This document shows positions 36,901 through 61,638 of a DNA stretch of 64,000 nt, one piece after another (position 1 is the stretch's first letter; each line of letters opens with the position of its first letter). The stretch comes from Symbiodinium sp. CCMP2592 (lineage: Eukaryota; Sar; Dinophyceae; Suessiales; Symbiodiniaceae). Both the position numbers and the translations under genes were made by a program. Where the stretch lies: NCBI GenBank assembly GCA_905221615.1, contig CAJNDT010006020.1, forward strand, positions 1 to 64,000. The letters run 5' to 3'. Under the pieces are notes generated by a model. The model had not been told where the DNA came from. It saw only the letters and a program-made list of their open reading frames with translations, and ran no database searches.

Positions 36901-36952
36901 CTGAACTGATTTGTCTGTGACCGCAACACCTTCAGTGTTACAGACAGTCGGG

Positions 36953-41539: not shown

Positions 41540-41544
41540 CACTT
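41540..41544. repeat. Copia target-site duplication, left copy (CACTT)
   Basis: CACTT directly before the 5' LTR, repeated directly after the 3' LTR at 52519-52523. Five bp is the usual size for Ty1/Copia integrases. Confidence 0.9.
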
Positions 41545-41722
41545 TGTTAAACATTCTGCCAGGAACAGTAACACAGCTAGTGCAGTACAGTTAATGTACA
41601 GGAACAGCCGTCACGCACACGCGACGTGCAGGCTCGAGACCCCAGGACACACCGTGCCCAGGAACAAAAGTGTCCGACAGTCTTTGTGGGTAGGAACCCT
41701 TAGTGAAGCCCGTTCTTTAACA
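41545..41722 (+). repeat. Copia 5' LTR (178 bp)
   Basis: Begins TGTTAAACATTCTG and ends TTCTTTAACA, with short inverted tips TGTTAAA/TTTAACA. Carries four AGGAAC hexamers (41561, 41600, 41660, 41692). Confidence 0.95.
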
Positions 41723-44700
41723 TGGTAGCGGAGCTGCCTCCAGGAACCTCCTTGGCAGCGATGATGCTACTCGTAGCCATAGGAACCATGATGCTCGGCG
41801 CCATGGCAGTTTGCCTCGTTGCCGGATGGAAGCAGATGCGCGCAAATGAGCAGATCACCAAGAAGACGGAGACAGTGCTCAACATGCCCACGCTCAGGAT
41901 CGCAGTCCGTTCAGGAACAAAGTACCACCGCAGAGGTTGTGGACACCTTCGCAACCACAACGTGACAGCAGGAAACGCGCGAGACTTTGACGCTTGCAGC
42001 GATTGCTACCCCGACCGAGTGTTGGTGGAAGAGAAAGAGAAAAGGAACATGAAGTGCTACGGTTTGGCAGCATGTATGGTGCTGCTGGTTGGTTTCGCAC
42101 TGGGAAGCCTCGCAACTTTGTGCGGGATGATCTTGGTCCCAGGAGCAAGAAGTATGGCGGTGAGACCGTGGCAGGCCCTTGGCAACAACGTGGAGACCAA
42201 GGAAGAACTTGCCCTTGGAGACGTCTTATCCTCCAAGGATGCGAGCCGTGGGAGAAAGGAACTCACTTACGTGGAGAGCGACGAGAGCGAGCTCATGGCA
42301 GTGTGGTCGAGCAGAAGGAAGCCCAATACGCACCGGAACCGCTACAGGAACTACGACGTGTACGGCGAGTACTACCAGCAAGGCTACAACGAGTGCAGCG
42401 TGAACCCCGACGGCACCAACGTGAACACGATCAGGAACACGAACGCGTACACGATTAAGGACTATGTGGAGATAGGAAAAGTCATGGTACCGTACGCTTT
42501 GTTGTGCATGAACCAAGTGATGAACGAGCTCTACAGCGTCGTTAGCGTGACCGGCGAGTACTACACGGAAGAGAACAGGAACGGCAACCAGAACACCGAG
42601 AACCAGGAGAGTGAGAGCCTTGAGTCAGGCTACGCCCCTAGGTACCTAGTAAAACAACAGCGAGAAGTACTGAGGAAATTTGTACAGGAACATGTTCACA
42701 GTTTCGTAGAAAAGCTAGCAACTGTAGGAAAGAAGTTTCACGACGTCGTGCATGTGATAGTTCAGGAAGTCATTTCCAACAGAGTTGTATTTCAAGGAAT
42801 TCGCATAGCAGTGTTCTTAGGAACCCCAATGGGACTGATTACTTGGATCACCCTGTCGTACTATTCTAGTGTGTTTTTCGCAAGAGCAAGCAACCGCTCA
42901 AAGCACCAAAGGAAGACAAGAGGAGAAAGGAGAGCACAAGCAGTGTGCAGGAAACAGTGCAAGTCGCTACTTTTAGCAGCACTAGTGTACAGCAACCTTG
43001 AAACAGCAAAAGGAATGGAGGATGCATTGAAGGCACTTGCCGAGATCAATGCACAGACCTTACAAGGAATACAAACACTAGCAGAGGAGATCAGGAACTC
43101 AGCAGCTTCAGGAAGTCAAAGAGAAGCAGGACTTACACAAGCATTCCAGGAAACCCTGACAGCAGTTCAGGAACAGCAGAAGACAGCGCAAACAGCGTTG
43201 GCAGACGCCCACACGAACGCAGCAACGACACTTGAGGAGATAGGAGCATCTCTGGAGAAAGCAGTAAAGGAACAAAGAAAGCCTGGAGAAGTGGAGTTGC
43301 ACAAGCTGATTAAAAGCCCCGAAGCATTTTCCCCAGGAACATGGCAAGAAGAGAAGAGTGGATGGACAGAGTTCAGGAACAGGATGCGGATCTGGCTTGG
43401 AGCAGTGGATTCCAACATGGTGAAGATCATGGACATCGCCGAAAGGAACTTAAAAGATGATAAGCAAGTGAAGATGGCTGAGATGTCTGCAGAAGCAAAG
43501 GAAACAAGCAGACGCCTGTACAGTGTTCTTTGTTCATACACTAAAGGAAGGCCGTACCGAGTTGTAAAGCATGTAGCTGAGGAGAACGGTATGGAAGCTT
43601 ACCGTATGCTACTCAAGGAATATCAACCAACGAATCGTGCGAGATCGTTGGAGTTGTTTCACAACATTCTCAACTACAAATTCGCTCACAACAAAGGAAT
43701 TGCTGAGAATATCCTCGAATATGAGGAACACATCGAGAAGTACGAGAAGGCTACTGGAGAAAAGGTACAGGAGAATTTGAAAGTATCTACTCTTATTCAA
43801 GGTATGAAACCTGACGTGAAAAGGCACTTGTTGCTCAACATGGATGAGAAGACACAGTACAATACTCTTCGTCAGTACCTTGTGAACTATGAGTCAACCG
43901 AGCGTTGGACTAACTCTTTGGCAGCCCAGCAAGGAACACCTCACCGAACCACAACAGACTTGATCGACAAAGGTGATGACCATGGTGGTCTTGCAGCAAT
44001 GGATATCAACCAAGCATGGTACAAAGGAAAGAAAGGCTATGGCAAAGGTTATGTTCACCATAAAGGCAAAGGTAAAGGAAAAGGCAAGAAAGGTGGAAAG
44101 GACTTTGGAAAAGGTTACGGCTTTGACAGCAAAGGCAAAGGTAAAGGTAAAGGTTTCGGAGGTTTTGGCAAAGGCAGAGGTCGAGGCAACTGGAAAGGCC
44201 GAGGTAGAGGTTTCAGAGGTTACAAAGGAAAAGGCAAAGGTCGAGGAAGAGGTTTCTTCAGACACAAAGGAAAAGGTAAAGGCAAAGCCCAAGCAGCTAC
44301 AGGAGTGTGTCACTACTGTCATAAGTATGGACATTTCGAAGCACAGTGCAGACAGAAGATGCGTGACATGGGTTATCAGGCCAGGAACGTTGACCTTGAA
44401 AACCAGAGCGAGCAAGCGAGCACTACAGGTACTTCTACTCAGGCCCCTTCGTCAGCCAACAAGACCTCAACAAGCCAAAGCCAAGCAAGCCAAGGAACCC
44501 AAAGACCAGTGATTAGGATGGTCTCCATGTACCACATGGGAGACGAGCCCACAAGCTTTCCGGAGGAATTCGCGCTGAGTGAGAACTCTGAAGAGATAGA
44601 GATTGAGTACTTCGGAAGAGTTTTGCGGGTTGTTGGTGAAGAAGTTCAGGAAGAGAGGAGTGAGACAGAAGAGTTTTGGATTGGTGATGAAGATGATGAG

Positions 44701-47700
44701 TTTCAGGACTGTGATGAGGTGAGTGATGATGCATGGTTGCAATGGCATCTAGCAGGAACTCCGATAGGAACTCAGGATCGTGGATACTACTTTGAGTGTC
44801 CCAATGGATGTCATGAAACACCGTGGCACCCAAACATGCAGGAATGTGAGAACGGATGTCACCATCCTCCTAGAAGGAACAGAGTGGAGAGAACAGCACC
44901 CTCAAGGACCATCACCAGGTTTGCGCGTGCAGCAAGGAACGCGAGAAGTCGAGAGATCGAGGTCGTGCTGGATTCAGGAGCCGACATTTCGTTGGCACCG
45001 ATGTGGATGAAGAAGTATGGAAGAAAGGCACCCAACACTACCAAGGTAGTTTTGCGAGATGCACAAGGATCTCGGATCAAGGTTTCAGACCAAAGGATCA
45101 TTGAGGTTGAGTTTCGGGATGTTCAAGGAAACATTGTGAAGGTTGAAGAAGTGTTCTTGATTTCATCGGTTGTGCACCCTCTTTTGGCAGTAGGTAAACT
45201 GTTGAAGAAAGGCTGGGAGTTCAGAGATGGAACAGCAACAGGCACTTTCCTAACAGAAGGAACAACCAAGATCGCAGTGAACTACAACAACAACTCACTT
45301 ACAACAAAAGCCTTTGTGAGAGCAGTCAACTGGGAAGCAGAAGCAAAACCTATCCCTATGTACTTGTGCGAGAACTTGAAGGAACTCATTGAAGAACAGC
45401 GTGTTGGTTGGACCAACTGGCGAGACCCTTACCAAGTCCACTTCAGCCTAGGAACCTCAGAACACGTTGATACTTACTTGATGTTTCCACCAGGAAAGTT
45501 CGCATATCGAGCAGTGCTTATTGAGGATGATGATCAGTGGTATTTGTTGCATCACAGCATCATGTTTGAGGAACTTGAGGAACCGTTTGGAACAATCTTC
45601 GATGGCAGTAAGGAGTACCGCACGCTTACGCTAGTATCGCTCAAGGAATTTCCGCTGAACCTCATAGGCACCCCCAAGGAAGATGAGGATCGAAAGATGT
45701 TTGAAGAGTACACTGAGGATGCATGGTCAATCAGCATGGATGGCACTACACTCACGAGGTACCACAACTCGTTGAGGAAGACTTTGTTCAATCCTCGAGA
45801 TACCAATGACATTCCAGTAGACATTGGAAACCTCAAACCAGACAGGTACACGTATGGAGAAGAACCGATCAATAAGGATTTCTTTGAGGATGACAAGTTC
45901 TGGACTTTGGATGAGCCTCACAGAGACCCAGAACCACTAGGAGGTTTATCCTGGACAGGACGTAGTGTATTCGAACTCATTGAACCAGTGAACCCCAAGG
46001 CCAGAAGACCAAAACAGAAGGTTCACCAACTGGACACGATTCCAGAACAGGAAGAAGAACAGGAAGAGACCTCAGAGGCCCAAGCACCAGCACACAGGCA
46101 TGAACTTGCAGGAGAATTGTCTTTTACATTCAACGGTCATGAGTACAACCAGCAGAACAGCCTCAAGGCCCTGAGAGAGTTGTGCAAGGAACTAGGAGTC
46201 TCAAAAGCTGGCTCTAAGCAAGAGATTCTTAGAAGGCTCAGTAGATCCATTATGGAAGCAGAAAGGCATATGGAACTTGTTTCAGGCCAGAAGAAGTACA
46301 AAGAGTTTCTAGAAGCTGAACCTCTGAAGGTACCCAAACAGCCAAAGCCGGAGGAAGTTGCAGTGCATAATCTCACACACTTACCTTATGCATCGTGGTG
46401 TCCGACGTGTGTAGCATGCAAAGGAAAAGAGTCTCCACACCTTCGTGAGAACCCAGAGAAGGAAAGATCTTCAAGACCAACTTTCTGTATGGATTTCTGT
46501 TTTACAGGAACAAGTCATGATGAGGCACCAGCGGCAGTAAGTCTTGTGTGTGTTGATTCTTGGAGTAGGAACATGGTCTGTATCCCGACAGCATCTAAAG
46601 GAAAGGATCTTGTAGAGCACCTTTGCGAAGGAGTGACCTACTTGAGTACTCAGCTTGGATATGGAACCATCAACTTGAAGGCAGACAACGAAGGAACAAT
46701 GATGAAGCTGAAACAGGTCATCCAGAAGCAGCGAGCAGCTTTAGGTCTAGGAACAGTCTTGCAGGACGCAGTCAGTGGCCAGAAGGAAACCAACGGCATG
46801 GCAGAGAGAGCAATCCAGACCATTAGGAGACAAGGAACAACCCTGATTAGGCACCTTGAACACAGAACAGGAACATATATTGCTCATACTCATCCAATCT
46901 TCAGTTGGGCTTTCAGGCACTCGGCATGGACCTTGAACAGGTACCATCGCCATTCCTCCACAGGAATGACTCCGTATGAATTCATGGCAGGAAGGCCTTA
47001 TGAGGGCCAACTCGCCGAATTTGGCGAATCACTTTTGGTTTTGACCAATCGTTCAGGAACACGTGCCAATAGGAAAGGTGACCCTATTTGGTTGAGAGGA
47101 GTGTTTTTAGGAAAAACAGACAACAACCTCTTCATTACATGGCACATGGACGGCATCAAGACAAGCCGTAGCGCAAAACGTTGCTTGGAACACTTCGACG
47201 TGAAAGGAATAAGTAGCGTAGGAATTCACACTTGGGAAGTGAAGCACACTACACTGGCAACAAGGAACATTCCCAGGAAGAACATTCCAGGACCAATTGC
47301 AGAGGCGCCACCTGTCATGGATGGAGCAACTCAGGAACAGTCGGTCGAGGACTCGGCACCTTCCGCACCTTCAGGACCGATCGCAGGACCGATTGTCATC
47401 CAAGGCGGGGACTCTGCAGGGAAGTCAGGACCTACTAGGACAACCTACCTAGAGAGCAAAGCGAAGCAGGCACAGAGCAAGAGAAAAGCAGAAGAAGAAC
47501 TTGAGCAGGAATACGACCAAAACAAACACGACGAAGCAGCTTCAGACCCAACGTCTTCTAGTAGCAGCAGTAAGGAAATGGACGCAGCCTCAGAAGAAGA
47601 ACTCATCCCAGACAGCGCAATGGCAAGTGAGCTTCTTTCAGCTAGAGGACCAGCACCTCTTAGGAAAATGGAATTTGACGATGTAGGAACAGGTTCCAAG

Positions 47701-50700
47701 ATCCCGAAGATTGATTCTCCGAAGAAGAAGTACCCTCCGTTCAACGTAGGAAGAGTATTTGAGCACAATGATGAAGAACTACCTGAAGCAGAACCAGGTA
47801 CAGAGGACATTTTCTGGGAAGATTCATATTCGGACATTGGCGATTCCGATGAGGAACAAGACATCTTCAAGAGCGAAGATTCTGGACCTCCAGAAGTTGC
47901 AGAAGCCCAGTTGCAGGAACTGGATCGTGAGGCGATGCTCACAGAGATCAACAGACTCACCGAGATGAAGGCACTGGCAAGGAAACCCTTGCAAGAACTC
48001 GAGAGAGAAGAGGAGAGAGAGACAGAAGAAGAAGAGAGCAACCAAGGAACAAAGTGGTTGACGACGAAATTCGTCTTCGATTGGCGATTCAGGAACGGCC
48101 GATGGATGCGGAGAGCTAGGTTAGTAGCGAGAGAGTTCAAAGGAGCAGAAGTAAGGAACGACACGTTTAGCCCAGCTACGAGCGCATCGTTGGTGAGACT
48201 TATCCCGATCTTGGGATTACAACAGGAACATTCCCTGTACTCCATTGATGTCAAGGACGCATTCTTGCAGGTCCCACAAAGGACTCGATGTGCATGTCAA
48301 TTCCCGAAGGAATATGTGGATCTGTTTGGCGACCAGGACCCCAGTTGTAGGAACGAAGGTTTGTTACTGCTTAGAGTACTTCCAGGACAGCGAGATGCAG
48401 CACTACTATGGAGTGATCATTTTGCAGGAACCCTCAAAGAGCAGAACTTTGATAGGAGCAAAGCTTGCCCTACTTTGTTTCGTGACGACAGGAACAGCAT
48501 ACTTGTTGTGCATGTAGATGACATTCAGGCAGCAGGGAAAACAAGGCACCTAGAGCCCAAGCTAGGAAAGCTAGGAGAAACCTACGAGCTAAAGGTTGAA
48601 GGCCCCTTCTTGACAGAGCAGGAACTTGAGGTAGGAGAGTCACACCAGACAATCCGATTCCTTAAAAGGAAATTCAGCTACCACAATCACGAGCTCCACA
48701 TCACGAGTGACCCGAAGTATCTTGTGAAGCTTAAGGAAGAACTGAAGCTTACCAGCAAAGCCTCAAAGCCAACTCCGTGCACCCAAGAGTCGCAGGAACA
48801 GGACAACACTCAGACCTTGAACCAGGAACAAGCAGCATCGTTCAGGAAAAGCGTTGGCATACTCTTGTATGTCAGTCAGGACCGCCCTGACGTGCAGTTT
48901 GCCGTGAGAGGTTTGGCCTCCAAGATGTCGGAACCAACACATGGTTCTTGGAAACACTTAGTCCACCTAGTGCAGTACATGTCGAGAACTGAAGGATACC
49001 ATTTAGTGTACAGGAAAACGCCTAGAGGACTCAGTAATCTCCATGAATCCATCAGGAATGGTAACTACGACTTTACAGGAATAAGGCCCAAGGAACACCA
49101 CCTTTTGGAAGTCTTCAGCGATTCAGATTGGGCAGGAAAGAAGGACACAAGGCGCTCAACATCTTCAGGAATTGTTTGCCTAGACGGTCAGTGCATTTAC
49201 TCCTTTTCTAGGAACCAGAAGTCGGTTAGCTTGAGCAGTGGTGAAGCAGAGTACTACGCAGGAGCGTCAGCAGCGTCAGATTCTATATTGTTGAAGGAAG
49301 CAGTAGAATTCTTGACCAGGAAACAATGCAAGGTACACTTGTACATGGATTCTTCTGCAGCTAGAGGAATTATTACAAGGCAAGGTGTAGGAAGAGTCAA
49401 GCATTTGCAGATCAGGACCCTTTTTCTTCAAGACCTCCACAAAGAAGGAACAATTAGTGTTCACCCAGTAGGAACCAAGGAGAACACAGCCGACATAGGT
49501 ACCAAGCCCCTTTCAGCGAAACGTATCAGACTGTTGTTGCACTGGCTAGGTTTTCAAACCAGCGAGAACGAACCAGTAGGCAGAGAAGAGCTCAAGGAAC
49601 ACAAGGCCCAAACACAAGCTAAAGCAGTTGTAAGAATGATCAAGAGCCCAGGAACTTTGTCTTTTGCAGCTTTGTTGTTTGCAGGAATTTCAGGTATTTC
49701 AGACAGTCTTCAGATTCAGAGTTTCAAGGAACAGTGTTTTGAGAGTTGTGTTCAGGAAGAAGAGTTTCAGCCAGACTTTCAGGAACATGTTTTCTGTTGT
49801 GCAAGTGCATGTGAGCAGGACGGCATGTGCAGTGACACGAGTGCATGTGAGCTAGGAACGTCTGCAGGAACAGCGCATGGAACAACATGTTGTGAGATGC
49901 TTTCGCAGCTCAAGGAACTCTGCGGAACACTCGCGGAACGCTCAGGTATCCAGGAACTAGTTCGCCCGGTAGCAGAAGGTCAAGGAACCGTAGAACGACA
50001 GAGCCAAGGAACCTTAGCAGCCATGGAAGCAAGCGCGAGTTCGAGCAAGAACACAGCGGAAGTTTTCAAGGAACTTGAGATTTTGAAGGAAGCGGCGACA
50101 GCCTTAAGGAACGCTTCTGATGAAAGGAACTTGATCGCGGAGTCGATCAGGAAGAACACAGAGGAAGCTGCGCGTTTGCGCAAAAGCCAGGAACACGTGG
50201 CTGGTTGTGTGGAGTCCTTGACAGGACAAATCTACGACGTCAAGCACCAGGTTCAGGAAATGGCCGAACAGAACGACAGAGACCGGCAACAAGTCAAGGA
50301 ACACATGGCCTTCGTCCTAGGTACATGTGACGCCGTAAAGGAACAGCTGAACCAGATGATGCAGGACTTCTACGAGCAGCAGCAAGAGGAACAAGAAGAA
50401 GAGGAAGAAGACGAAGAAGAACAAAGGAAAAGAGAAGCCAAGGACCGAGAGCTAGAAGGTGAACTACGTCGTGAAGGACACGGACAAGGAACAGCACCGT
50501 CGAGAGCTACGTCACCTACGTCCCAGGAAAGGAAGGAATATTCGGACCGAGGCTACTTCGAGGGCATCCAGGAACGAGAGCAGGAAGCCGGCAACGAGAA
50601 CGAGGCCTACGTCAACAGCTACGTTGGAGGAGAAGATCCCGGGGAGTACCCCGATGAAGGAACAGCAGCAGCAGAGGAAGAAGAAAGTGAGGAAGCAAAG

Positions 50701-52143
50701 GAAGAGAGAAGGAAGAAGAAGATCGCGGAGATCAACGCCAAAAGCAAGCAAAGACTCAAGGAAAAGGAAGAGGAGAAGAAGCTTTTTCCGTACCCCTACG
50801 ACTACGCCAGCGAATGGAAGGAATACTCCGAGAACGGCGAGATCTACAGGCAACACAGAGTTACAGGAGAAAAGCAGTGGGTCGACAAGGACTACACGTA
50901 CAAGCACGAGAAGGGAACAAAAGGAAAGAAGGAAGGAAAAGGAAAAGGAAAGCCAAAGGCAAGAGCAGAAAGCACAGGATTTCGACCTCGAGATGAAGAT
51001 GATCGCAAGTACTGGGAAGAACAGGACAGGATCTCAAAGGAACAAAGAGAAGCAAAAGCAAAAGCAGAAGAGGAGAAGAAGGCAAAAGAGGAGCAGATTG
51101 CCAAAGCAAGGTTGATTCTGGAAGCGGCAGCAGAAGAACAGGAGAAGAGAGACAAGGAAGCAGCAAGGCAGGAAGCAGCCGCAGCCGCCGAGAGAAGGCG
51201 AGAGGTAGAAGCAGCAGCCAAAGCCAAAGCAGAGAGAGAAGCAAAGGAAAAGGAGGAGACCGAAGCGGCAGCAGCAAAGGAGGCAGAGGAGAAAGCAGCA
51301 GCCGCAGCAGCCAAAGAGGAAAAGGAAAGAAAGGAGCAGGAGAAGAAAAGAAAGGAGAAGGAAGCCAGGAAGAAAAGAGAGGAAGATCAAAAGGCAGCGT
51401 CAGCGTACATTGCCAAGAAGGAAGCAGAAAAGAAGGCAGCAGCAACAACAGCAACAGGATCAGGTGAAGGAGACAGGATCCAGAAGCTTGAAGAAATGAT
51501 GAAGGAGATGATGAAGGAACGCAAAGAGGATAAAGAAAGGATTGCAAGCCTTACACAGGAGCTTGAGAGCAGAGGATCAGCAGCCGGGTCGCAGGCACCC
51601 ACAGAACCTGACACAACACCAGCAAAGGAAGAGGAGAAGCCAGAAGCAAAAGGAACAGGAAAAGCAACAGGAAAGGAGCCACCGAACGTCACACAGCACA
51701 AGCAGAAGGAAGAAGACAAGGACGACCCAGAACTGTCCGCCAAAGGACCAGTGAACGAAGCATCGTTCATGAAAGGAAAAGGAAAAGGAGAGTTTGAAGG
51801 AAACTGGTTTGCAGTCTACAGTTTCCAGAACAGGAAATACCAGTGGAAGTGGAACGAAGCCAAGACACAGTGGTACTGGTATTCAGGATCAAAGGAAACA
51901 GGTTGGAAAGCAGCGTCAAAGGACAAGCAAGGAAAGGAAAAGTGCAAAGCGCAAGCAAAGATGAAAGAAGAGTGGCTAAAGGAACAGCTTCACGACCAAG
52001 AGGAAGCTAAAGACAGCGAAGAGGAAGGCAAAGTAACTTCCAGTGAAGCAAAGGAACCGCGAGCAGTACTGAGGCCAGAGAGCCAAGGAAAGAAGCAGCA
52101 GGACACAGGAACCGTGGCACAGCCCTTTTTGTTTCTGTGGTGA
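41722..52143 (+). CDS. Copia Gag-Pol polyprotein (3473 aa) with unusual N- and C-terminal extensions
   Basis: One uninterrupted frame. Residues ~1-440 hold two or three hydrophobic segments (near 15-35, 110-130, 355-385) and a small Cys/His cluster near 60-95. Gag core about 540-720, then a GKGKGKG/RGRG-rich stretch and a CCHC knuckle at about 863. Protease DSGAD at 1084. Integrase HHCC from ~1549, with D1591, D1655 and E1695. Reverse transcriptase with D2176 and HVDD at 2264-2267. RNase H about 2460-2615. Then about 850 residues not expected in Copia: a hydrophobic stretch and Cys-rich segment, long coiled coils, and two aromatic WW/OCRE-like modules (near 3020-3060 and 3360-3405). The frame's first ATG straddles the LTR and primer site; a later Met (about residue 14) may be used instead. 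No stop or frameshift, so it is probably competent. Confidence 0.93.
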   Translation: MVAELPPGTSLAAMMLLVAIGTMMLGAMAVCLVAGWKQMRANEQITKKTETVLNMPTLRIAVRSGTKYHRRGCGHLRNHNVTAGNARDFDACSDCYPDRVLVEEKEKRNMKCYGLAACMVLLVGFALGSLATLCGMILVPGARSMAVRPWQALGNNVETKEELALGDVLSSKDASRGRKELTYVESDESELMAVWSSRRKPNTHRNRYRNYDVYGEYYQQGYNECSVNPDGTNVNTIRNTNAYTIKDYVEIGKVMVPYALLCMNQVMNELYSVVSVTGEYYTEENRNGNQNTENQESESLESGYAPRYLVKQQREVLRKFVQEHVHSFVEKLATVGKKFHDVVHVIVQEVISNRVVFQGIRIAVFLGTPMGLITWITLSYYSSVFFARASNRSKHQRKTRGERRAQAVCRKQCKSLLLAALVYSNLETAKGMEDALKALAEINAQTLQGIQTLAEEIRNSAASGSQREAGLTQAFQETLTAVQEQQKTAQTALADAHTNAATTLEEIGASLEKAVKEQRKPGEVELHKLIKSPEAFSPGTWQEEKSGWTEFRNRMRIWLGAVDSNMVKIMDIAERNLKDDKQVKMAEMSAEAKETSRRLYSVLCSYTKGRPYRVVKHVAEENGMEAYRMLLKEYQPTNRARSLELFHNILNYKFAHNKGIAENILEYEEHIEKYEKATGEKVQENLKVSTLIQGMKPDVKRHLLLNMDEKTQYNTLRQYLVNYESTERWTNSLAAQQGTPHRTTTDLIDKGDDHGGLAAMDINQAWYKGKKGYGKGYVHHKGKGKGKGKKGGKDFGKGYGFDSKGKGKGKGFGGFGKGRGRGNWKGRGRGFRGYKGKGKGRGRGFFRHKGKGKGKAQAATGVCHYCHKYGHFEAQCRQKMRDMGYQARNVDLENQSEQASTTGTSTQAPSSANKTSTSQSQASQGTQRPVIRMVSMYHMGDEPTSFPEEFALSENSEEIEIEYFGRVLRVVGEEVQEERSETEEFWIGDEDDEFQDCDEVSDDAWLQWHLAGTPIGTQDRGYYFECPNGCHETPWHPNMQECENGCHHPPRRNRVERTAPSRTITRFARAARNARSREIEVVLDSGADISLAPMWMKKYGRKAPNTTKVVLRDAQGSRIKVSDQRIIEVEFRDVQGNIVKVEEVFLISSVVHPLLAVGKLLKKGWEFRDGTATGTFLTEGTTKIAVNYNNNSLTTKAFVRAVNWEAEAKPIPMYLCENLKELIEEQRVGWTNWRDPYQVHFSLGTSEHVDTYLMFPPGKFAYRAVLIEDDDQWYLLHHSIMFEELEEPFGTIFDGSKEYRTLTLVSLKEFPLNLIGTPKEDEDRKMFEEYTEDAWSISMDGTTLTRYHNSLRKTLFNPRDTNDIPVDIGNLKPDRYTYGEEPINKDFFEDDKFWTLDEPHRDPEPLGGLSWTGRSVFELIEPVNPKARRPKQKVHQLDTIPEQEEEQEETSEAQAPAHRHELAGELSFTFNGHEYNQQNSLKALRELCKELGVSKAGSKQEILRRLSRSIMEAERHMELVSGQKKYKEFLEAEPLKVPKQPKPEEVAVHNLTHLPYASWCPTCVACKGKESPHLRENPEKERSSRPTFCMDFCFTGTSHDEAPAAVSLVCVDSWSRNMVCIPTASKGKDLVEHLCEGVTYLSTQLGYGTINLKADNEGTMMKLKQVIQKQRAALGLGTVLQDAVSGQKETNGMAERAIQTIRRQGTTLIRHLEHRTGTYIAHTHPIFSWAFRHSAWTLNRYHRHSSTGMTPYEFMAGRPYEGQLAEFGESLLVLTNRSGTRANRKGDPIWLRGVFLGKTDNNLFITWHMDGIKTSRSAKRCLEHFDVKGISSVGIHTWEVKHTTLATRNIPRKNIPGPIAEAPPVMDGATQEQSVEDSAPSAPSGPIAGPIVIQGGDSAGKSGPTRTTYLESKAKQAQSKRKAEEELEQEYDQNKHDEAASDPTSSSSSSKEMDAASEEELIPDSAMASELLSARGPAPLRKMEFDDVGTGSKIPKIDSPKKKYPPFNVGRVFEHNDEELPEAEPGTEDIFWEDSYSDIGDSDEEQDIFKSEDSGPPEVAEAQLQELDREAMLTEINRLTEMKALARKPLQELEREEERETEEEESNQGTKWLTTKFVFDWRFRNGRWMRRARLVAREFKGAEVRNDTFSPATSASLVRLIPILGLQQEHSLYSIDVKDAFLQVPQRTRCACQFPKEYVDLFGDQDPSCRNEGLLLLRVLPGQRDAALLWSDHFAGTLKEQNFDRSKACPTLFRDDRNSILVVHVDDIQAAGKTRHLEPKLGKLGETYELKVEGPFLTEQELEVGESHQTIRFLKRKFSYHNHELHITSDPKYLVKLKEELKLTSKASKPTPCTQESQEQDNTQTLNQEQAASFRKSVGILLYVSQDRPDVQFAVRGLASKMSEPTHGSWKHLVHLVQYMSRTEGYHLVYRKTPRGLSNLHESIRNGNYDFTGIRPKEHHLLEVFSDSDWAGKKDTRRSTSSGIVCLDGQCIYSFSRNQKSVSLSSGEAEYYAGASAASDSILLKEAVEFLTRKQCKVHLYMDSSAARGIITRQGVGRVKHLQIRTLFLQDLHKEGTISVHPVGTKENTADIGTKPLSAKRIRLLLHWLGFQTSENEPVGREELKEHKAQTQAKAVVRMIKSPGTLSFAALLFAGISGISDSLQIQSFKEQCFESCVQEEEFQPDFQEHVFCCASACEQDGMCSDTSACELGTSAGTAHGTTCCEMLSQLKELCGTLAERSGIQELVRPVAEGQGTVERQSQGTLAAMEASASSSKNTAEVFKELEILKEAATALRNASDERNLIAESIRKNTEEAARLRKSQEHVAGCVESLTGQIYDVKHQVQEMAEQNDRDRQQVKEHMAFVLGTCDAVKEQLNQMMQDFYEQQQEEQEEEEEDEEEQRKREAKDRELEGELRREGHGQGTAPSRATSPTSQERKEYSDRGYFEGIQEREQEAGNENEAYVNSYVGGEDPGEYPDEGTAAAEEEESEEAKEERRKKKIAEINAKSKQRLKEKEEEKKLFPYPYDYASEWKEYSENGEIYRQHRVTGEKQWVDKDYTYKHEKGTKGKKEGKGKGKPKARAESTGFRPRDEDDRKYWEEQDRISKEQREAKAKAEEEKKAKEEQIAKARLILEAAAEEQEKRDKEAARQEAAAAAERRREVEAAAKAKAEREAKEKEETEAAAAKEAEEKAAAAAAKEEKERKEQEKKRKEKEARKKREEDQKAASAYIAKKEAEKKAAATTATGSGEGDRIQKLEEMMKEMMKERKEDKERIASLTQELESRGSAAGSQAPTEPDTTPAKEEEKPEAKGTGKATGKEPPNVTQHKQKEEDKDDPELSAKGPVNEASFMKGKGKGEFEGNWFAVYSFQNRKYQWKWNEAKTQWYWYSGSKETGWKAASKDKQGKEKCKAQAKMKEEWLKEQLHDQEEAKDSEEEGKVTSSEAKEPRAVLRPESQGKKQQDTGTVAQPFLFLW
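41723..41734 (+). promoter_or_regulatory. Copia primer-binding site
   Basis: TGGTAGCGGAGC immediately after the LTR resembles the complement of an initiator-tRNA-Met 3' end, the common Copia primer. The exact tRNA of this organism was not checked. Confidence 0.7.
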
Positions 52144-52340
52144 TCTAGGTAAAGTGCAGGAACGTCTTTTGTACAGTCGAGCAACCTTGGAGAGGATTGC
52201 GAGTGAACGTGCGCATACGTTTGCGATGAGGAACAGTGTTTGTTTTGCAAGTGAAAAGGAACTGCAGCGTGTTTACTGTTTGTCAAGGAAAAGTCGGAGT
52301 CACCTCAGTCGAGGAACTTTCGCTAACTCCGAAGGCGGGG
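52144..52340 (+). other. Copia 3' untranslated region with purine tract
   Basis: Non-coding after the TGA at 52141-52143. GAAGGCGGGG (52331-52340) abuts the 3' LTR and is the likely plus-strand primer. Holds four AGGAAC hexamers although it encodes nothing. Confidence 0.75.
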
Positions 52341-52518
52341 TGTTAAACATTCTGCCAGGAACAGTAACACAGCTAGTGCAGTACAGTTAATGTACAGGAA
52401 CAGCCGTCACGCACACGCGACGTGCAGGCTCGAGACCCCAGGACACACCGTGCCCAGGAACAAAAGTGTCCAACAGTCTTTGTGGGTAGGAACCCTTAGT
52501 GAAGCCCGTTCTTTAACA
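52341..52518 (+). repeat. Copia 3' LTR (178 bp)
   Basis: Identical to the 5' LTR except position 52472 (A versus G). Followed by the target duplicate CACTT at 52519-52523. Confidence 0.95.
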
Positions 52519-54289
52519 CACTTCCAGAATAGCAGGCAACCAGTGGTCGTGCAAAGCGAGGCTGTCGCTGCAAGTATACCTGGGAAAAAGGGCGCGGGTC
52601 GGGCGCAGCAAGCGCCAGTCCCCCAGCACGTGCGGCAATGATGTGGGCCATTCGTTCACAAAGCAGCACTGGATATGCAGCCTCATCGGCAGTCGGGAAA
52701 GAGGTAGCATGTGGCTGCAAACGAGGTTTCCAAGAAGCGTGCTGGTGGTCGCGTGAACATCGGAGAGCGAGAGGCTGAAACCAATCGGCAGAGCACCACA
52801 ACAGGGTGGTTTTGTCACGTGTGCCACCATGCATGCAGGCATCGTAGACCACGGTGTGATGTGGTGAGCGGAACAGCTCGTCCAGGCCATCACACAACCA
52901 AGCCAAAGAGTTGCGTGGGTTTTCCACGGTGACGAAGATTTTCAATTGTCGAGCCAGGTCAGCAATTTGCCCGACGGCACGGTAGAGCATATTGGCCTTC
53001 TGGACCCTTTCAAGATCTGCGCCAGTCAAAGTGGAGAGTCCTTGGGGTTCGGAAGTGCTGCGCAAAGGTTGCGGCACCCGAACACCAGCAGCAGTCAATT
53101 CTGGAATGGGTCTTGAGCGCGCCGCAGACGCGGTGCCACATGGCGGCGCACAATGGATCCAGACAATATTGGCCGCCTCAAGACGGATGATATCCAGAAG
53201 AATGCAAAGGTCGTCAGCATCGGTGAGGTCAAGACGTTGTATGGGGAAGCGTCCACGTGCGGTGGATTTATCGATTGCAAGCGTTCTGAAACCCAGTTTC
53301 TGACAGGCAGTGCTGAGCCGAGCCGTGCCTGCAAAGATCTCGATAACCAGCGGTGTGGCCCGTTGCGGAAAGGCCTCCTGCAAGCCAGTATGCGTGGAAG
53401 CAGATGCACTGGTGGATGGTCCGGCGTCAGGCGAACCTAGAGGTTTTAGGGAGGGGCAGGCGGCGGGTTTAGGGCCAACTAGGGGTCGGTAGGCGACCTT
53501 GGGCCGCTTGGGCGGTGGCACGGGGAGCACAGCGTCTGAGGCCGATCCGGACTCAACTTGAGGCAGGAGGAAACGAGCATCAAGGAGTCGAACACGATGT
53601 GCCTCGGACAGGAGGCCAGTGTCACGAATGCAGAATCCAACAATCAACAAGCGAGTACCGTCCCAGTCACAAGTTGCGTGCAGCCTCTCTGAAGGAAGCA
53701 ACTGTGGGCCGTCAGCAACAGGCAGCAAGTAGCCCAGACGCGGCACGTCGGGGTCGGGGCACGGACACTCGCCTTTACCCTCAACCCAAATCTGGCCTTT
53801 GTGGAAAACAGAGGCAGGCAAGATCAGGTTGGGATGGGCATGATCGTTGTTGGCGTCGTTGTGCAGAGGCGCCTTTAAATTCAAGAAAAGTCCAACAGAC
53901 GAGAAGCAGCGAGAGCCAAAAGACGCCGACAAGACGGCGGCCAAAAGCATGGTACTAAAAGGAAAGGCGTGAAAATTAGAGCGCAGTCCGGCTTTGGCTT
54001 GATGGACATATGCGCCGGATGTGAAAGATTTGGGAGCTGTCGGGTCCACAGATTCTTCTGACGGGGCACCGGCAGTGTCTGCAGGGAGCAAAGCGATCAA
54101 GCTCCGAAAATCGTCATGACTAGCAAAACCGGCCTGTAGGCATTGCAATGCTATCGCCTCCGCGGGTGCCAACACGTCGGCAACCTCAGAAGTGGCAGCA
54201 GGGGGAAAATGAAAGCCCACTGAGTGTGGGCCATAGCCAGAAATGGCAGCCGCCTCAACAGGCGGAGCTGAGGTGTCGAGATCTGTTTG
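52519..54289 (-). CDS. 5' half of DIRS-like polyprotein: 2OG-Fe(II)-dioxygenase-like and C5-methyltransferase-like domains
   Basis: The frame is open directly after the Gag UGA, with no nearby ATG; a GTG at 54220 is used here only for numbering. Residues ~75-205 show LH(120)-N-D(122), then KGQIWVEG, H181 and R190 in an RLHATCDWDGTRLLIVGF context: the HxD...H...R signature of 2OG-Fe(II) dioxygenases, close to TET/JBP or AlkB style. Residues ~290-500 show LVIEIFAGTARLS (motif I), CAPPCGTASAARSR with C361 (motif IV), and VENPRNS (motif VI-like, ENP). This suggests a cytosine-type methyltransferase fold. The frame then runs into the Copia LTR at 52518 and resumes at 41539 in RT. Pairing a modification writer with a possible eraser in one polyprotein is inference; neither activity is proven. 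Confidence 0.65.
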
Positions 54290-54292
54290 TCA
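54290..54292 (-). promoter_or_regulatory. In-frame UGA between Gag and Pol, candidate readthrough site
   Basis: Gag ends ...GKSE-UGA and the next codons (CAA ACA GAT ...) stay open in the same frame into the dioxygenase, methyltransferase and RT parts. The context UGA-C is among the leakier ones known. The second retroelement in this window has the same arrangement at 63216-63218. Confidence 0.55.
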
Positions 54293-55645
54293 CTCGGATT
54301 TACCCTTGCCGGATCCCTTCCAAGTGCGAGCTCGGCAATTACGGAAGGAGTGGCCCACACGGCGACAGTAAGCACAAACATGGACACCCCGAGGGCAGCG
54401 CGGTGGGTCTCCCTCAGTCTTGGCCTTGCAGCCGGCGCAATTATGGTCCCAACAGATGGGCTTGCCGTCCTCGGTTTTCTGGTGAGCGTCCTTAAGTTCA
54501 GCCGGCATGGTGCGTGCCTTTGTAGCCTGTGCAGCAGTAGCCTGGGCGCCTGTGCTCCGTCCTGGTGTCGTATGCTTGGCAGCGGTAGCCGCCTCTTTTG
54601 CACGGCGACGGCGCTTGGCGGCTCGGGACAGTCCTTCACCTGGTTTGGCAGGGGAGCCTTGCTCAAGGTCTTGAACCTTAACATCCGGTGCACGGCCCCA
54701 GGTAGCCATCAAGTACATGGTGATCCGAGGGTCTGTCCTCAAAGCATCCAAAGCCTTACCCAGAGGGTACTCGCCAGCGGTACTGGGCTTAAGCGATGGC
54801 ACCTCGGACGCCATGATCAACCAGGCTTCACGATCGGCCTGCACAATGCGGTTCATATCAGGCTTGTGGAACCCTGGAGGGCACTCCTTAGTCAGTGCGT
54901 GAAGCAAGCAGTGAACCCAACGCTCATGCTGGGCCCACGTCAGTACCTTAGCCTGGTCCAAGGCCAGACCGCGGCGCTGAAGGCACCACTGCAACTTGAT
55001 CGGCGAATCATAAGAAGCAATGTCCTTGGGCTGTTCACTTCCGACCTTCAAGGAGTTGTCCTCAAGTCGAAAGATTTTGCTTTGGTCCTTCGTTGAAAGC
55101 TGAATTTCTGATTCGCGGCTGGTGCATTTGCCTGGCGATATCCAAGTGATGCCCACATCATGCATGTGACAACAGAGGTCCACCAGAGCATGGGAAGGGA
55201 CCAAATCACGCTCTATATGCACCCCACTAAGCCGACGGCGCTGATCTTCGGCCCTGGCCTGTTTTTCAGCAAGTGGAAGCTTTCGAGGCTGTTCGGCAGA
55301 GTCCCCTTGCACAGCTTGACGCAACTGAGCTATGACATATGTGGCGGACTCGAACATCAATCGCTTCAAGATAGACACATCCCCCAAACGGGGAGCAGCC
55401 CCCAAGATCTTTACTGCAAATGCGTCCATTTCCGCCTGTGTGGGTCGATCCTGAGGCGTGCCACAGGAATATGCAAGCGAGGCAAAGGAAGTGATCCCTT
55501 GGTCAGACAGTGCGGTGTGAATTGCACCCCCGCCGACGTCTTGACATCGCTGCCGAAATGAAGCCTCACTGTCAACCAGCGACATGTCGCCCCCTAAAGG
55601 CGGCTCGAGCACCAAGTCAGCTGAGAAGTCAGGGCTGTGTTCCAC
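54290..55645 (-). CDS. Gag-like protein with C-terminal zinc fingers (DIRS-like element)
   Basis: 451 codons. Helical body, then a basic linker (AAKRRRRAKEAATAAK) and Cys/His clusters CWDHNCAGC, CPRGVHVCAYC and the CCHC-like CAYCRRVGHSFRNC, ending KGSGKGKSE. The position between recombinase and Pol and the zinc knuckle point to a nucleocapsid-type RNA-binding role. The ORF start is an ATG at 55645, 70 bp after the recombinase stop. Confidence 0.7.
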   Translation of the reverse strand: MEHSPDFSADLVLEPPLGGDMSLVDSEASFRQRCQDVGGGAIHTALSDQGITSFASLAYSCGTPQDRPTQAEMDAFAVKILGAAPRLGDVSILKRLMFESATYVIAQLRQAVQGDSAEQPRKLPLAEKQARAEDQRRRLSGVHIERDLVPSHALVDLCCHMHDVGITWISPGKCTSRESEIQLSTKDQSKIFRLEDNSLKVGSEQPKDIASYDSPIKLQWCLQRRGLALDQAKVLTWAQHERWVHCLLHALTKECPPGFHKPDMNRIVQADREAWLIMASEVPSLKPSTAGEYPLGKALDALRTDPRITMYLMATWGRAPDVKVQDLEQGSPAKPGEGLSRAAKRRRRAKEAATAAKHTTPGRSTGAQATAAQATKARTMPAELKDAHQKTEDGKPICWDHNCAGCKAKTEGDPPRCPRGVHVCAYCRRVGHSFRNCRARTWKGSGKGKSE

Positions 55646-55715: not shown

Positions 55716-57443
55716 CTAGTGACTGTCCGCCACTGCCTTCTTGCAGTTGCGACACACTGATGAGTCAAACCTGATTCGCTGTGGAAGACTGTACAAGTCG
55801 CTAACCATCCGCCCACACATCAGTACGCGGCGGTTGTTGTCAGCAATCATGTGCAGCAAGCGAGTTCTCTGATGCTGTAAAAATGTTGTGCCTTCCGCAG
55901 GCTCCGGCGGCGGCATAATCCGGGCCGGTTCGTCATCGCTTCCGGAGCCATCACTTGAATCACTTGATCCACTCGAACTAGAAGAATCGGAATCCTTGCC
56001 GACAAGTTTGTCGTCTTCTGCGCCCAAAGAGGACACACCGCCGTCACCCACCTCAGCTTCGGGTGGCTCATCAGCAGAATCCTGCCCCATAAGGTTCGCG
56101 TCATCATCGCCCGGAAAGAAGACGTCTGGCTGGCTCGGTGCTCCCTTATCAAGCGCGTCGACCAAGCCAAACATGTCGTCGTCGCCCGTCACCCTCTCCC
56201 AGGACTCAGCAGAGGGAGGGTGGCGATCATCCGTCTGTGCAGCGAAACCCAATCGAAGCTCTTCCAAGCCACTCCCGCGCAAATAACCCGCACGACCAGC
56301 ATCTGGATCAAAGACACCCTCTCGGATCTCTGAGATCAAGGCCATGAGCAGGCGGAGGGGCCGGGCCAACTCGTCATCGCCATAAGTGTCAGCCATCCCG
56401 GCCGAGTTTGCGTGTCCACCCAGAACCAACCGGTCCAAGTGTTCCACGCCACGCTTTGTCGCCATGGTAAGGAAAGTCCTCTTCAGCGTGTGGCCAGATG
56501 TTCTGAGTGATCCACGGTCGACGAAGATCTTCTGAAGCCATAAAGACATCTCCTCAGTGCTCACGGATGCACCGGTAGGTTCTCCTGCAGGGCCTGGCGT
56601 AGGCAAGGGTGGAACGAACTCTGTAAGTCCCACCTCCATTCGAGCCTCGTGCCACAAATCGAGCCAGTTTGGCCCAGCGATACCTCGTCCAGGAGCGATC
56701 ATCCGAAGCGGTGCACCCGCAAAGAATTTAGAGTTGACTGTTTTGTAATCCTCACAAGTAAATTCCAGGAAGAGCCTCTCACCATCAGCCCCGTATTCCA
56801 GCCCACACGAGATAGAGTGCTGAAAATCGGACCAACGGGATCGCATGTACGCGCAGCACAAAGCTGCTCCCGCGAAAACTCGATCCCAAGCGGGGACACT
56901 CTTGTCCCCCAACATGGAATGGAGCAGCCTCAAGTTCTTCAAGGTCAAAGGGTCTGCCCTCTGGCGCGCCTTCCGCCGTGCACCCCTCGATGCTGCACCA
57001 AGACACCGCCTGCTGGATATCACGTTCTCAATCTCCTCAACTGAGAAGACATGTCGAACGAAGATCAACGCCTCACGAAGCGCACGCATATGTGCTGGCT
57101 TCGCTCCGCCAGCTCTGGCTGCAACCATGTGCTTGTAAACATTGCCCTCTTCATACGGAAAAGTCTCGTCGGACCATCCCTCACTTTTGTGAAAACGAAG
57201 CAGAGAGTTAACACGCTTAAGCAGCGTACTCGGAGCTTTTGGATGCAACCAATCCCGAAGAACTTCCGTACGTTCTTCTGCGGTAGCACACTCAAGCAGA
57301 CTCTTGCAGATCAAGAGGTCCGGGCGAAGATCGGCCCACCTCAAGATAACAAAGGTCCATCGAGCCATGGCCTTGTCGTGGTCCTTGTCGCGCTGATCTT
57401 GCCAAGATATGCCGTGGCTTTTACGTACCACCGAAAAACACAC
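55716..57443 (-). CDS. Tyrosine recombinase (DIRS-like element integrase)
   Basis: The catalytic domain lies in the middle: Arg in YMRSRWSDF, HTLKR (H-x-x-x-R region), the second His in LGGHANS and Tyr in DTYGDDEL, in the right order for the R-H-R-H-Y family. The upstream half resembles a SAM-like core-binding domain. A long acidic/serine C-terminal tail (DSSSSSGSSDSSDGSG) follows the catalytic part, which is unusual. Its first codon is a GTG. The natural N terminus is probably supplied from the overlapping acidic ORF (57341-57724) by frameshifting at a T5 run. Expected to integrate circular cDNA. Confidence 0.8.
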   Translation of the reverse strand: MCFSVVRKSHGISWQDQRDKDHDKAMARWTFVILRWADLRPDLLICKSLLECATAEERTEVLRDWLHPKAPSTLLKRVNSLLRFHKSEGWSDETFPYEEGNVYKHMVAARAGGAKPAHMRALREALIFVRHVFSVEEIENVISSRRCLGAASRGARRKARQRADPLTLKNLRLLHSMLGDKSVPAWDRVFAGAALCCAYMRSRWSDFQHSISCGLEYGADGERLFLEFTCEDYKTVNSKFFAGAPLRMIAPGRGIAGPNWLDLWHEARMEVGLTEFVPPLPTPGPAGEPTGASVSTEEMSLWLQKIFVDRGSLRTSGHTLKRTFLTMATKRGVEHLDRLVLGGHANSAGMADTYGDDELARPLRLLMALISEIREGVFDPDAGRAGYLRGSGLEELRLGFAAQTDDRHPPSAESWERVTGDDDMFGLVDALDKGAPSQPDVFFPGDDDANLMGQDSADEPPEAEVGDGGVSSLGAEDDKLVGKDSDSSSSSGSSDSSDGSGSDDEPARIMPPPEPAEGTTFLQHQRTRLLHMIADNNRRVLMCGRMVSDLYSLPQRIRFDSSVCRNCKKAVADSH

Positions 57444-57724
57444 TCCAGGAACGAGCCACTTTCTCTAAGACGCCTCTTCTTTTCCGAAGGTGGGAGAATT
57501 TCCTCGGGATCATCTGGCACAGGGAGGTCAGGCAGCATAAAAGTGTCTTCCCAACCCACCACATCGCTAGGCTCGAAGATGCTCTTGAACACACCGTGTT
57601 CCCAGGGCAATTCCGCGGGCTGTCTAGCATCGCTAGCACAAGCATCCACAGCCGCACTCAGCAAAGCTTCGAAGTCTATCCTTGGGCCCTGATCGCTCGA
57701 GCACCCGTTACTCGCCCCCTGCAT
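57341..57724 (-). CDS. Acidic ORF overlapping the recombinase N terminus
   Basis: An ATG at 57724 gives MQGASNG followed by an acidic segment (FMLPDLPVPDDPEEILPPSE). The last ~34 codons overlap the recombinase frame, which lies one base back (-1). The overlap holds GTTTTTC (about 57427-57434), where a ribosome could slip from this frame into the recombinase. Alternatively one base is missing or extra and both were one gene. Confidence 0.45.
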   Translation of the reverse strand: MQGASNGCSSDQGPRIDFEALLSAAVDACASDARQPAELPWEHGVFKSIFEPSDVVGWEDTFMLPDLPVPDDPEEILPPSEKKRRLRESGSFLECVFRWYVKATAYLGKISATRTTTRPWLDGPLLS

Positions 57725-59345: not shown

Positions 59346-59385
59346 TAAAAAGAATTTTTTCCTGCCCACTTGAGCAAGAAACCTT
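59346..59385. repeat. Right inverted terminus of the DIRS-like element (5' end)
   Basis: Exact complement of 38958-38997. Its outer three bases overlap the last bases of the DinoSL relic. Confidence 0.9.
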
Positions 59386-59402
59386 GAGCCAAAATGGCTA
59401 CG
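59383..59402 (-). other. DinoSL (dinoflagellate spliced leader) relic
   Basis: The minus strand reads CGTAGCCATTTTGGCTCAAG, identical to positions 3-22 of the 22-nt spliced leader that dinoflagellates trans-splice onto mRNA. It sits exactly at the 5' end of the DIRS-like element. A second, decayed TTCTTGCTCAAG follows 8-14 nt inside. The leader is not normally encoded beside genes, so this marks a retroposed trans-spliced transcript. Confidence 0.9.
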
Positions 59403-59616
59403 TTTTACCTTTTAACACTCCTCCTCAAAGGAGGTACTTTCCAAATCTTTGATTCATCATTTCAGTTGTTAGTGATTTTATGGTCTTTGAATTGTGGGCT
59501 ATTCGCCCCTTGTCAGTTCAACGATATATCTCGCGCCGATACATTTTGGATCAACCGGAAGGGGACTTTTAGTCCTTTTAGTGTCTGGGGGGCGCCTTTT
59601 CAGGCTTCTTCGCGCA

Positions 59617-61638
59617 ATGGAAGATAGGCTGTGGGGCCTTCTTGAAGAGAAGGGCTGCAGTGCTGTGGGTTTGCTTCGCATTCACTTTCAGACTCCTTGG
59701 CACCTGGCATGCGCAGTGGACAGTGTTGAAGACGCTGTGCGATTGGCAGAGCAGATCACTCCGAGTTCGATTCCTTCGGACCACAAACGGTTGGGATCTC
59801 AGATCTGGGAGTGGATGACTGCTCACACAGGTCTTTTCAAGCGGGTGCAAAGCAGGCTTACTGCGAAGGCCACACGAATTGAAGCGACCCCTGGAAATTC
59901 GGTGTCTCCTTGTGATATCTTCGATCAGTGCGTGAGCAATAGTCTTGATCTTTGCAAGCAGACCAGTCGTGCACATGCTAGATGGATTTCGAATGGCGCC
60001 GGGACCCCGGCGGATGCAGAAAAATCTTCCAAGAAATTCTGGGGAACTGTCCTGGTTCAGATCATGGTGGAGGCAAAGCTTCCTATCGTTGACATTCCGG
60101 TTGAGAATGAGGAGCAGCGTGTTTCTTATGCTCTCCGAGCCTTGGGAGCTCGGATGTCCAAGACACTCAGGAATCGTGCAAGGGCCTGGCGCAAGGCTCG
60201 TGACTGGATGCTTTCAGTGAAAGGTTACCCTTTCCCGAAGAGTCCTTCTGATGTTGTAGATTACCTCATCTTCTTGGAGCAGGAGGTGGGTACAAAGAGC
60301 TGCATTTCTGAGCTTATGAGCGCATTGTCTGTCATTGAGGATGCTGGACAGGTTCCTTTGACAAATCAGCTGTGCAAGAATCGATTGGTCGTCGCGGCCT
60401 CAAAGAGCACCGGGGCTGAAGTGCAGGAGGGGAAAACCAGCAGGAAGCAGGCGGCTCCCCTTTCGGTGGCGATGTTATTATCTTTGGAAATTTTTGTGGT
60501 GACTGGTACGAACCCTCATTATGCTCGGTGCCTGATGTGGGCCTGCTTGGTTTGCGTATGGGCTTGTATGCGTGTCTCTGATCTGCAAGGAATTGACGTT
60601 TCTCGCCTTAGGCTTTTTCGTGAGGGGCTTAAGGGCTTTTTAGTGAAGACCAAGACGACAGGACCTGATAAGAAGGTGGCCGAAGTTCCTTTCTTTATAG
60701 GCAGGTGTGTCGGGATATCAGGACGTGATTGGTTGGGCACTGGATTTGACCTGTGGAAAAGCTTGGGACAGCTTGATCGCACTTTCTTGGTTTTCCAGTC
60801 TTCTGAAGATTTTGAGGAGCCGTCTTACAAATTCGCCAAGCCGGAGGTCATTAGCAATTACATGCGTCTTATTTGGCGCCAGCTTTTGGTTCCATTCAGG
60901 AAGCTTGGTGAAGATGTTTGGAGATCCAGGGCTGAGGGGAAGCTGCTGGGCGATGAGTGCTATCTCTTCTGGACAGGTCACAGTATGAGACATGTTTTGC
61001 CGACAATTGCAGCGGTGCTTGGTGTTCCGAAGGAGCAGAGAGATTACCTTGGCAGGTGGCATGTCGGTCTGCACCAGAGTGCGGATTACATACATACATG
61101 TCGCCAGATCGTGCATGACTTGCAGCGACGGGTTTGTGACAAACTCTCGGGCGGAAAGCCTGGCTATGATGAGGAAGAGTTGTTTGATGAGCTTAGGGCC
61201 TGGCTTCGGGAGAGAGGCCTGGACCCTGAACCTTGGTTGAAGCTTCATGCCGTGATGCGCACCGTGAATGGTTGCAAGGTTTTGAATCAGAGATGGCCGC
61301 TGCTTGAGGATGCCACCGAAAGGTCGGACGACGCTGCCCCGGCCCCGCTGGTTTCTAACTCTTCACAAGATTCTGGAGAGTCTCCGTTTTGGGTGAGCAT
61401 CAGCAGGCACTCAGGGCACAGGCGGCTGCACATACGAAATGGCTGCTGGGTCACTCCCGGTAGTTGTCATCGCTTCGCTGAGGTGTGGAAGGTTGATTCT
61501 TCGGTGGCCGACAGTTTCTGTAAATTGTGCTATCGTGATAAGGAGAGCTCATCTTCAAGTTCGGGGGAGTCTTCCTCCACAGACTTGGGTGAGCCAGCAG
61601 AGCCGCTCGAGTTGGCCGACCCATCTTTTCACACTTGA
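59617..61638 (+). CDS. Tyrosine recombinase of the second DIRS-like element
   Basis: 673 codons from the ATG at 59617. Core-binding region followed by catalytic residues: Arg in ACMRVSDLQG (about 60565-60590), GHSMRHVLP (H-x-x-R, about 60976-61000), then LGRWHVGLHQSADYIHT with His/Trp and Tyr (about 61048-61095). A C-terminal domain has a Cys-containing segment (SFCKLCYRD) and a serine-rich tail. The frame has no stop or shift, so the enzyme may be functional. It has little visible similarity to the first element's recombinase outside the motifs. Confidence 0.78.
   Translation: MEDRLWGLLEEKGCSAVGLLRIHFQTPWHLACAVDSVEDAVRLAEQITPSSIPSDHKRLGSQIWEWMTAHTGLFKRVQSRLTAKATRIEATPGNSVSPCDIFDQCVSNSLDLCKQTSRAHARWISNGAGTPADAEKSSKKFWGTVLVQIMVEAKLPIVDIPVENEEQRVSYALRALGARMSKTLRNRARAWRKARDWMLSVKGYPFPKSPSDVVDYLIFLEQEVGTKSCISELMSALSVIEDAGQVPLTNQLCKNRLVVAASKSTGAEVQEGKTSRKQAAPLSVAMLLSLEIFVVTGTNPHYARCLMWACLVCVWACMRVSDLQGIDVSRLRLFREGLKGFLVKTKTTGPDKKVAEVPFFIGRCVGISGRDWLGTGFDLWKSLGQLDRTFLVFQSSEDFEEPSYKFAKPEVISNYMRLIWRQLLVPFRKLGEDVWRSRAEGKLLGDECYLFWTGHSMRHVLPTIAAVLGVPKEQRDYLGRWHVGLHQSADYIHTCRQIVHDLQRRVCDKLSGGKPGYDEEELFDELRAWLRERGLDPEPWLKLHAVMRTVNGCKVLNQRWPLLEDATERSDDAAPAPLVSNSSQDSGESPFWVSISRHSGHRRLHIRNGCWVTPGSCHRFAEVWKVDSSVADSFCKLCYRDKESSSSSSGESSSTDLGEPAEPLELADPSFHT

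Follow-up and report, generated by a model that had tools for sequence, protein, structure and literature searches.

The 64,000 nucleotides analysed here (the window; positions 1 to 64,000 of contig CAJNDT010006020.1, GenBank assembly GCA_905221615.1, Symbiodinium sp. CCMP2592) contain a retrotransposon, probably of DIRS type, whose pol polyprotein carries a TET/JBP-like 2-oxoglutarate- and Fe(II)-dependent (2OG-Fe(II)) dioxygenase domain (domain A) and a C5-cytosine-methyltransferase-like domain (domain B). The element lies on the minus strand, where the order of transcription is a tyrosine-recombinase-like open reading frame (ORF; 55719-57464), a gag-like ORF (54293-55645) with a CX2CX4HX4C zinc knuckle (CAYCRRVGHSFRNC), and a 597-codon frame (52499-54289) that holds domain A at 53549-54118 (residues 58-247, as given by profile span, AlphaFold2 and fold matches) and domain B at 52616-53368 (residues 308-558).

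The window copy is split by a Copia-type element inside pol (41545-52518, plus strand; type assigned by eye from its ORF). The long terminal repeats (LTRs) of this insertion, at 41545-41722 and 52341-52518, are 178 bp each, run TG...CA and are 99% identical, and the target site CACTT is duplicated at 41540-41544 and 52519-52523. The element part of the 597-codon frame stops at 52519, the remainder being Copia LTR, and pol continues on the minus strand at 39303-41546 (element part from 41544) with a reverse transcriptase (RT; YFDD) and an RNase H-like end. Positions 52519 and 41540 share codon phase 0, each being a first codon base, and the pol frame was therefore originally continuous from domains A and B into the RT. 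An uninterrupted counterpart elsewhere in the genome (L040, contig C4734) encodes domain A, domain B and RT in a single 1336-codon frame, with a domain A 100% identical to that of the window. The first-pass annotation of this sequence had proposed continuity with both RT and RNase H once the Copia insertion is removed: for the RT this is upheld by the LTRs, the target duplication, the shared phase and L040, whereas the RNase H is weakly borne out, with no Pfam match for the window ORF at E<=10 and weak matches (E 0.006-0.13) in relatives. The RT of the window ORF matches Pfam RVT_1 at E 0.039, below cut-off, and the best relative does so at E 1.9e-6.

Comparison with other copies made use of 15 longer genome regions, hand-chosen from the domain A matches so as to span different families. 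A homologue of the gag-like ORF, for which Pfam returned only zf-CCHC_4 at E 0.56, lies upstream of pol in 10 of these regions, and a homologue of the tyrosine-recombinase-like ORF is present in 12. The catalytic-looking residues of the latter (R, HxxxR, GGH and Y) were identified by eye, and a Pfam search with the tyrosine-recombinase-like ORFs of the window gave zero matches. Twelve regions were tested for repeats. Five of them (L041, L043, L044, L046 and L048) have split direct repeats in the order A-coding-B-A-B (the letters here denoting repeats), L040 has the same arrangement cut at the locus edges, and one of the two clear repeat pairs was found within the stretch examined in L042, L045, L047, L050 and L053; the pairs of L041 lie at 731-957 and 9276-9507, and at 9007-9277 and 9511-9779. 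No repeat pair was found within the stretch examined of L039. This order is the one given for Symbiodinium DIRS elements (PMC5890265), and the element is most likely of the DIRS type. The window copy itself has neither terminal nor split direct repeats, only a 41-nt inverse match, and its 3′ side ends near a foldback. This foldback, just past the RT ORF, is perfect (39013-39125 and 39158-39270, with arms of 113 nt and 32 nt between them), and the 41-nt stretch beside it (38957-38997) has its inverse repeat at 59346-59386.

Two enzyme-like domains in pol

Structure prediction places domain A among the 2OG-Fe(II) oxygenases. The AlphaFold2 model (predicted local distance difference test, pLDDT, 91) is a double-stranded beta-helix of the 2OG-Fe(II) kind, TET and AlkB enzymes rank at the top of its structure matches, and every fold among the best 50 matches listed is a 2OG oxygenase. 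The closest structures are those of TET enzymes, which account for all 16 Foldseek matches at E<=0.001, with none from AlkB; the ribosomal oxygenase YcfD and other 2OG enzymes that do not act on nucleic acids appear in lower Foldseek rows. At the sequence level the window copy of domain A gave nothing credible against Pfam, PHROGs or PDB sequence profiles, Tet_JBP included, and scans of IMG/VR with domain A, with an alignment running from domain B onwards (A3) and with the database protein P0040 yielded no confirmed relatives. The 2OG families that Pfam reported for domain A members were Tet_JBP in two of nine and Asp_Arg_Hydrox in one of nine, the latter a weak match at E 0.19. Because the Tet_JBP gathering score of 34.9 bits lies above both the best score in the genome (29.6 bits) and that of P0015 (14.5 bits), we call the domain TET/JBP-like rather than filing it as a member of the family.

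The residues expected of such an enzyme are in place, their roles being inferred from the family: the HxD iron ligands H143 and D145 (HNDANN, 53855-53863), the second ligand histidine H204 (HATCDW, 53678-53680) and R213 (53651-53653), a presumed 2OG-binding arginine, all on the minus strand. Across 16 aligned rows, the window included, H143 is kept in 13 of the 14 rows that reach it (two rows start after it), D145 and H204 in 16/16 and R213 in 14/16. This is the full count, from which only the mis-spliced partial models P0013, P0029 and P0032 were excluded; alignment A5 additionally omits P0002, P0004, P0008, P0009, P0010, P0039 and P0042. Key residues are altered in P0002 and P0010. The same picture emerges from 30 distinct genome copies at 33-100% identity (40 stretches, each longer than 150 residues, minus 10 duplicates), where H143, H204 and R213 are each found in 29 and D145 in all 30; residues are changed in L016, L013 and L035.

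Domain B carries motif I (EIFAGTARLS), PPCGTAS, VENP and HGGTRDK, with C384 of PPC (motif IV, the presumed nucleophile) at 53138-53140 and E456 of ENP (motif VI) at 52922-52924, both on the minus strand. Its predicted structure (pLDDT 84.2) is a C5-methyltransferase fold: the best 50 VIA rows are all C5-cytosine methyltransferases (DNMT3B 13.0, M.HhaI 12.6, DNMT1 11.6), as are the best 50 Foldseek rows (best E 2.1e-6). DNMT3 enzymes head the VIA list, but the score of M.HhaI is within 1 Z of theirs. Domain B matches the PHROGs family phrog_757, annotated as DNA methyltransferase, at E 1.3e-6, as do 11 of 29 homologues at E<=0.1; as a phage tblastn with domain B found zero relatives, that family is its single link to phages. 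Pfam DNA_methylase (PF00145) failed to match, at E<=1, any of 5 window proteins, 16 members of alignment A1, 29 members of A3 and 7 pol ORFs, and for this reason the domain is called C5-methyltransferase-like. Surveys that take PF00145 as their starting point, as de Mendoza et al. did, would probably miss it.

Among the 15 pol ORFs of the longer regions, as aligned, the PPC cysteine of domain B is kept in 13 and the ENP glutamate in 12, the window copy having both; L045 and L051 have lost both residues and L048 the glutamate, while all three keep the residues of domain A. Motif I is unaligned in L039, L043, L046 and L048, which likewise keep the domain A residues. In a tree of domain B the rows that bear domain A fall into three lineages, with labels of absence resting on gene models that often start inside the element. 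The first-pass annotation had picked out both domains from the letters, and its H, D, H, R, PPC and ENP residues are present at the spacing it gave, with a numbering offset of 23; both of the folds it named were obtained by prediction, and the conservation across copies that it asked about is seen for H, D, H and R and mostly for the PPC cysteine.

Genome copies, selection and the gag-pol junction

A search of the genome (1,098,105,373 bases in 5383 contigs) with domain A gave at least 150 scored matches from 4098 candidates, the weakest listed at E 9e-24, a small number of rows being two parts of one copy. Seven places, the window among them, are 99-100% identical across all 181 residues, and a second family at 62-68% identity includes ten 1359-codon frames; the genome has many open frames in the range of 1215-1359 codons, and P0040, at 1215 residues, has domain A, domain B and RT. 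All protein relatives that carry an organism name are from Symbiodinium.

Domains A and B share one ORF in all 15 longer regions, with A first in ten and B first in five (L039, L043, L045, L046 and L048), and they lie at least partly in one ORF in 25 of 30 short loci (L009-L038; all but L016, L017, L019, L036 and L038). The existence of both domain orders, together with joint presence in 15/15 ORFs, argues that the pairing matters. The RT was recognised in the same ORF by our own profile in ten of the 15 regions and by Pfam in L043 (E 0.0017), and was seen by neither in the ORFs of L039, L046, L048 and L052. In the ORF of L052 (contig C5003, 2977-7233, 1419 codons), domains A and B are preceded by some 650 residues of unknown kind and an RT motif was not found; this locus may represent another type of element.

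Codon comparisons between copies show both domains to be under purifying selection. Across 16 hand-picked pairs the ratio of nonsynonymous to synonymous divergence (dN/dS, NG86) was 0.03-0.32 for domain A and 0-0.49 for domain B, each in 12 pairs; dS was saturated in the remaining pairs and above 2 in several of those counted, and the pairs share copies and so are not independent. Seven close pairs (dS <0.11) gave 0.03-0.24 for domain A.

The gag and pol of the window copy share one reading frame and are separated by a single TGA (54290-54292, minus strand; GAG TGA CAA), and the first methionine of pol is residue 114, inside domain A. A gag recognised by profile stands in frame directly before pol in eight of the 15 regions (L040, L041, L042, L044, L045, L047, L050 and L053), and in all eight the stop at the junction is TGA, followed by C in six and by CTA in four; L042 has an additional in-frame stop inside gag. 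TGA-CTA is a leaky stop context. In four further regions (L039, L043, L046 and L048) at least 238 codons are open in frame ahead of a TGA that is followed by C, the upstream ORF being unrecognised as gag. In L049 and L051 gag is in a different frame, and in L052 no more than 9 codons are open upstream. It is probable, on this pattern of stops, that pol is made by conserved read-through of the gag-pol TGA, and the junction offers a testable case of recoding.

Proposed action on element DNA and rival readings

We consider it likely that pol of this DIRS-type retrotransposon joins a TET/JBP-like dioxygenase, a C5-methyltransferase-like enzyme and RT in one polyprotein that acts on the element's own complementary DNA (cDNA) or on its target. 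Gag-Pol would be made by occasional read-through of the TGA, the RT would copy the element RNA inside a particle, and both enzymes would travel with it in the same polyprotein. The methyltransferase-like and TET-like domains would then modify pyrimidines of the cDNA (or of the target) prior to recombinase-mediated insertion, the likeliest chemistry being oxidation of a C5-methyl pyrimidine, either thymine or 5-methylcytosine (5mC) deposited by domain B or by the host, to its hydroxymethyl form. After the recombinase had inserted the modified copy, oxidised bases might shield it from silencing that relies on methylation, or mimic the modified DNA of the host. Weighing against joint action, two of the 15 pol ORFs keep the domain A residues and, as aligned, have lost both of those of domain B, so the domains need not act as a pair; that copies with a damaged methyltransferase keep the dioxygenase suggests that it may be valuable alone, perhaps on host-made 5mC or on thymine.

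A wider reading, which we think doubtful, is that DIRS elements of dinoflagellates, present in far more than a hundred copies, use this two-enzyme cassette to write oxidised pyrimidines into cDNA, and that all copies taken together account for a share of the 5-hydroxymethyl bases in the host genome. In Breviolum, a pull-down of 5-hydroxymethyluracil is reported to enrich multimapping reads about twofold (PMC11071213). The element is a concrete candidate for the makers of unusual oxidised bases in dinoflagellate DNA, and a concrete candidate enzyme for how retrotransposons handle epigenetic marks on cDNA.

The main rival is AlkB-like action on RNA or cDNA, in which domain A would strip N-methyl marks (of the m6A/m1A type) or alkyl damage from element nucleic acid, in the manner of the AlkB carried by orchid Gypsy elements, and domain B would serve separately. 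AlkB enzymes do stand near the top of the structure matches, but their absence from the 16 Foldseek matches at E<=0.001, and from the 2OG families that Pfam reported, makes this improbable. We give still less credence to the idea that domain A, and B with it, has ceased to be a nucleic-acid enzyme and serves as a structural or protein-modifying module of pol, hydroxylating for example capsid or host proteins. The weak Asp_Arg_Hydrox match in one member, YcfD and its like in the lower Foldseek rows, and the loss of domain B catalytic residues in two or three of 15 ORFs would fit such a role; against it stand the iron triad and arginine, each of which persists in 29 or 30 of the 30 copies, some as distant as 33% identity, and the DNA or RNA dioxygenases that make up the best structure matches of domain A. 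That the motifs arose by chance in an old drifting frame, as the Copia-split window copy and decayed copies (L016, L017, L019, L035 and L049) might suggest, is ruled out by the confident folds, database homologues (some from named Symbiodinium strains, and P0040 with A, B and RT together), the many long open frames and dN/dS well below 1.

In our search of the open-access literature, a TET-like domain did not turn up in any retrotransposon, nor did the two enzymes together in any mobile element, in line with the first-pass annotation, which knew of no described DIRS element with this combination. A close counterpart is SymbioDIRS-Dnmt3 (de Mendoza et al. 2018; PMC5890265), also a DIRS-type element of Symbiodinium, whose Pol ORF holds a DNMT domain as well as RT and which has a separate tyrosine-recombinase ORF (tyrosine-recombinase-like in the present element), A-coding-B-A-B repeats and two Pol domain orders. 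It was found through Pfam domains such as PF00145; compared by its published description, it differs in this respect from the present element, whose domain B has no such match, and the words dioxygenase and TET have 0 occurrences in the main text of that paper. The KnitGypsy-Dnmt3 element of Klebsormidium nitens likewise has a DNMT in a retrotransposon Pol under purifying selection, but is of Gypsy type, and no dioxygenase is named for it in the main text of that paper (PMC5890265).

Dioxygenases, for their part, are carried by Kyakuja and other fungal elements of TET/JBP type, which are DDE transposons and some Helitrons; CcTet, which is among the top Foldseek matches to domain A, lies close to the Kyakuja type (PMC12730594). 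In contrast to these, the dioxygenase here forms part of the pol of a retrotransposon, next to a C5-methyltransferase-like domain, and the December 2025 survey of fungal TET-carrying transposons states that it encountered no TET/JBP enzyme in a retrotransposon (PMC12730594). Orchid Ty3/Gypsy elements that encode an AlkB m6A RNA demethylase are likewise retrotransposons bearing a nucleic-acid dioxygenase of the 2OG-Fe(II) kind, but they are LTR elements of Gypsy type, the enzyme is of AlkB type and in a separate ORF, and no methyltransferase is named in the element in the available portions of that report (PMC9289625). If our reading is right, the Symbiodinium element would be the first retrotransposon to carry a TET-like dioxygenase and, to our knowledge, the first mobile element to unite a base methylator with a base oxidiser in a single protein.

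Other features of the window

A second element (L039) runs off the end of the window on the plus strand. It has a tyrosine-recombinase-like ORF at 59491-61635, identified by eye and without Pfam support, and the start of a pol at 63219-63998 with domain B at 63402-63860. An element lacking domain A was considered and rejected, as domain A follows domain B just past the window end (C5158:64266-64742), the domain order being reversed.

The Copia ORF (41707-52143, plus strand) is one frame of 3478 codons that extends several hundred codons, by eye, beyond the end of its RNase H, in a Glu/Lys-rich tail. Positions 36143-36902 hold dense tandem and inverted repeats of 31/35 nt, with arms of 265 nt that are 93% complementary.
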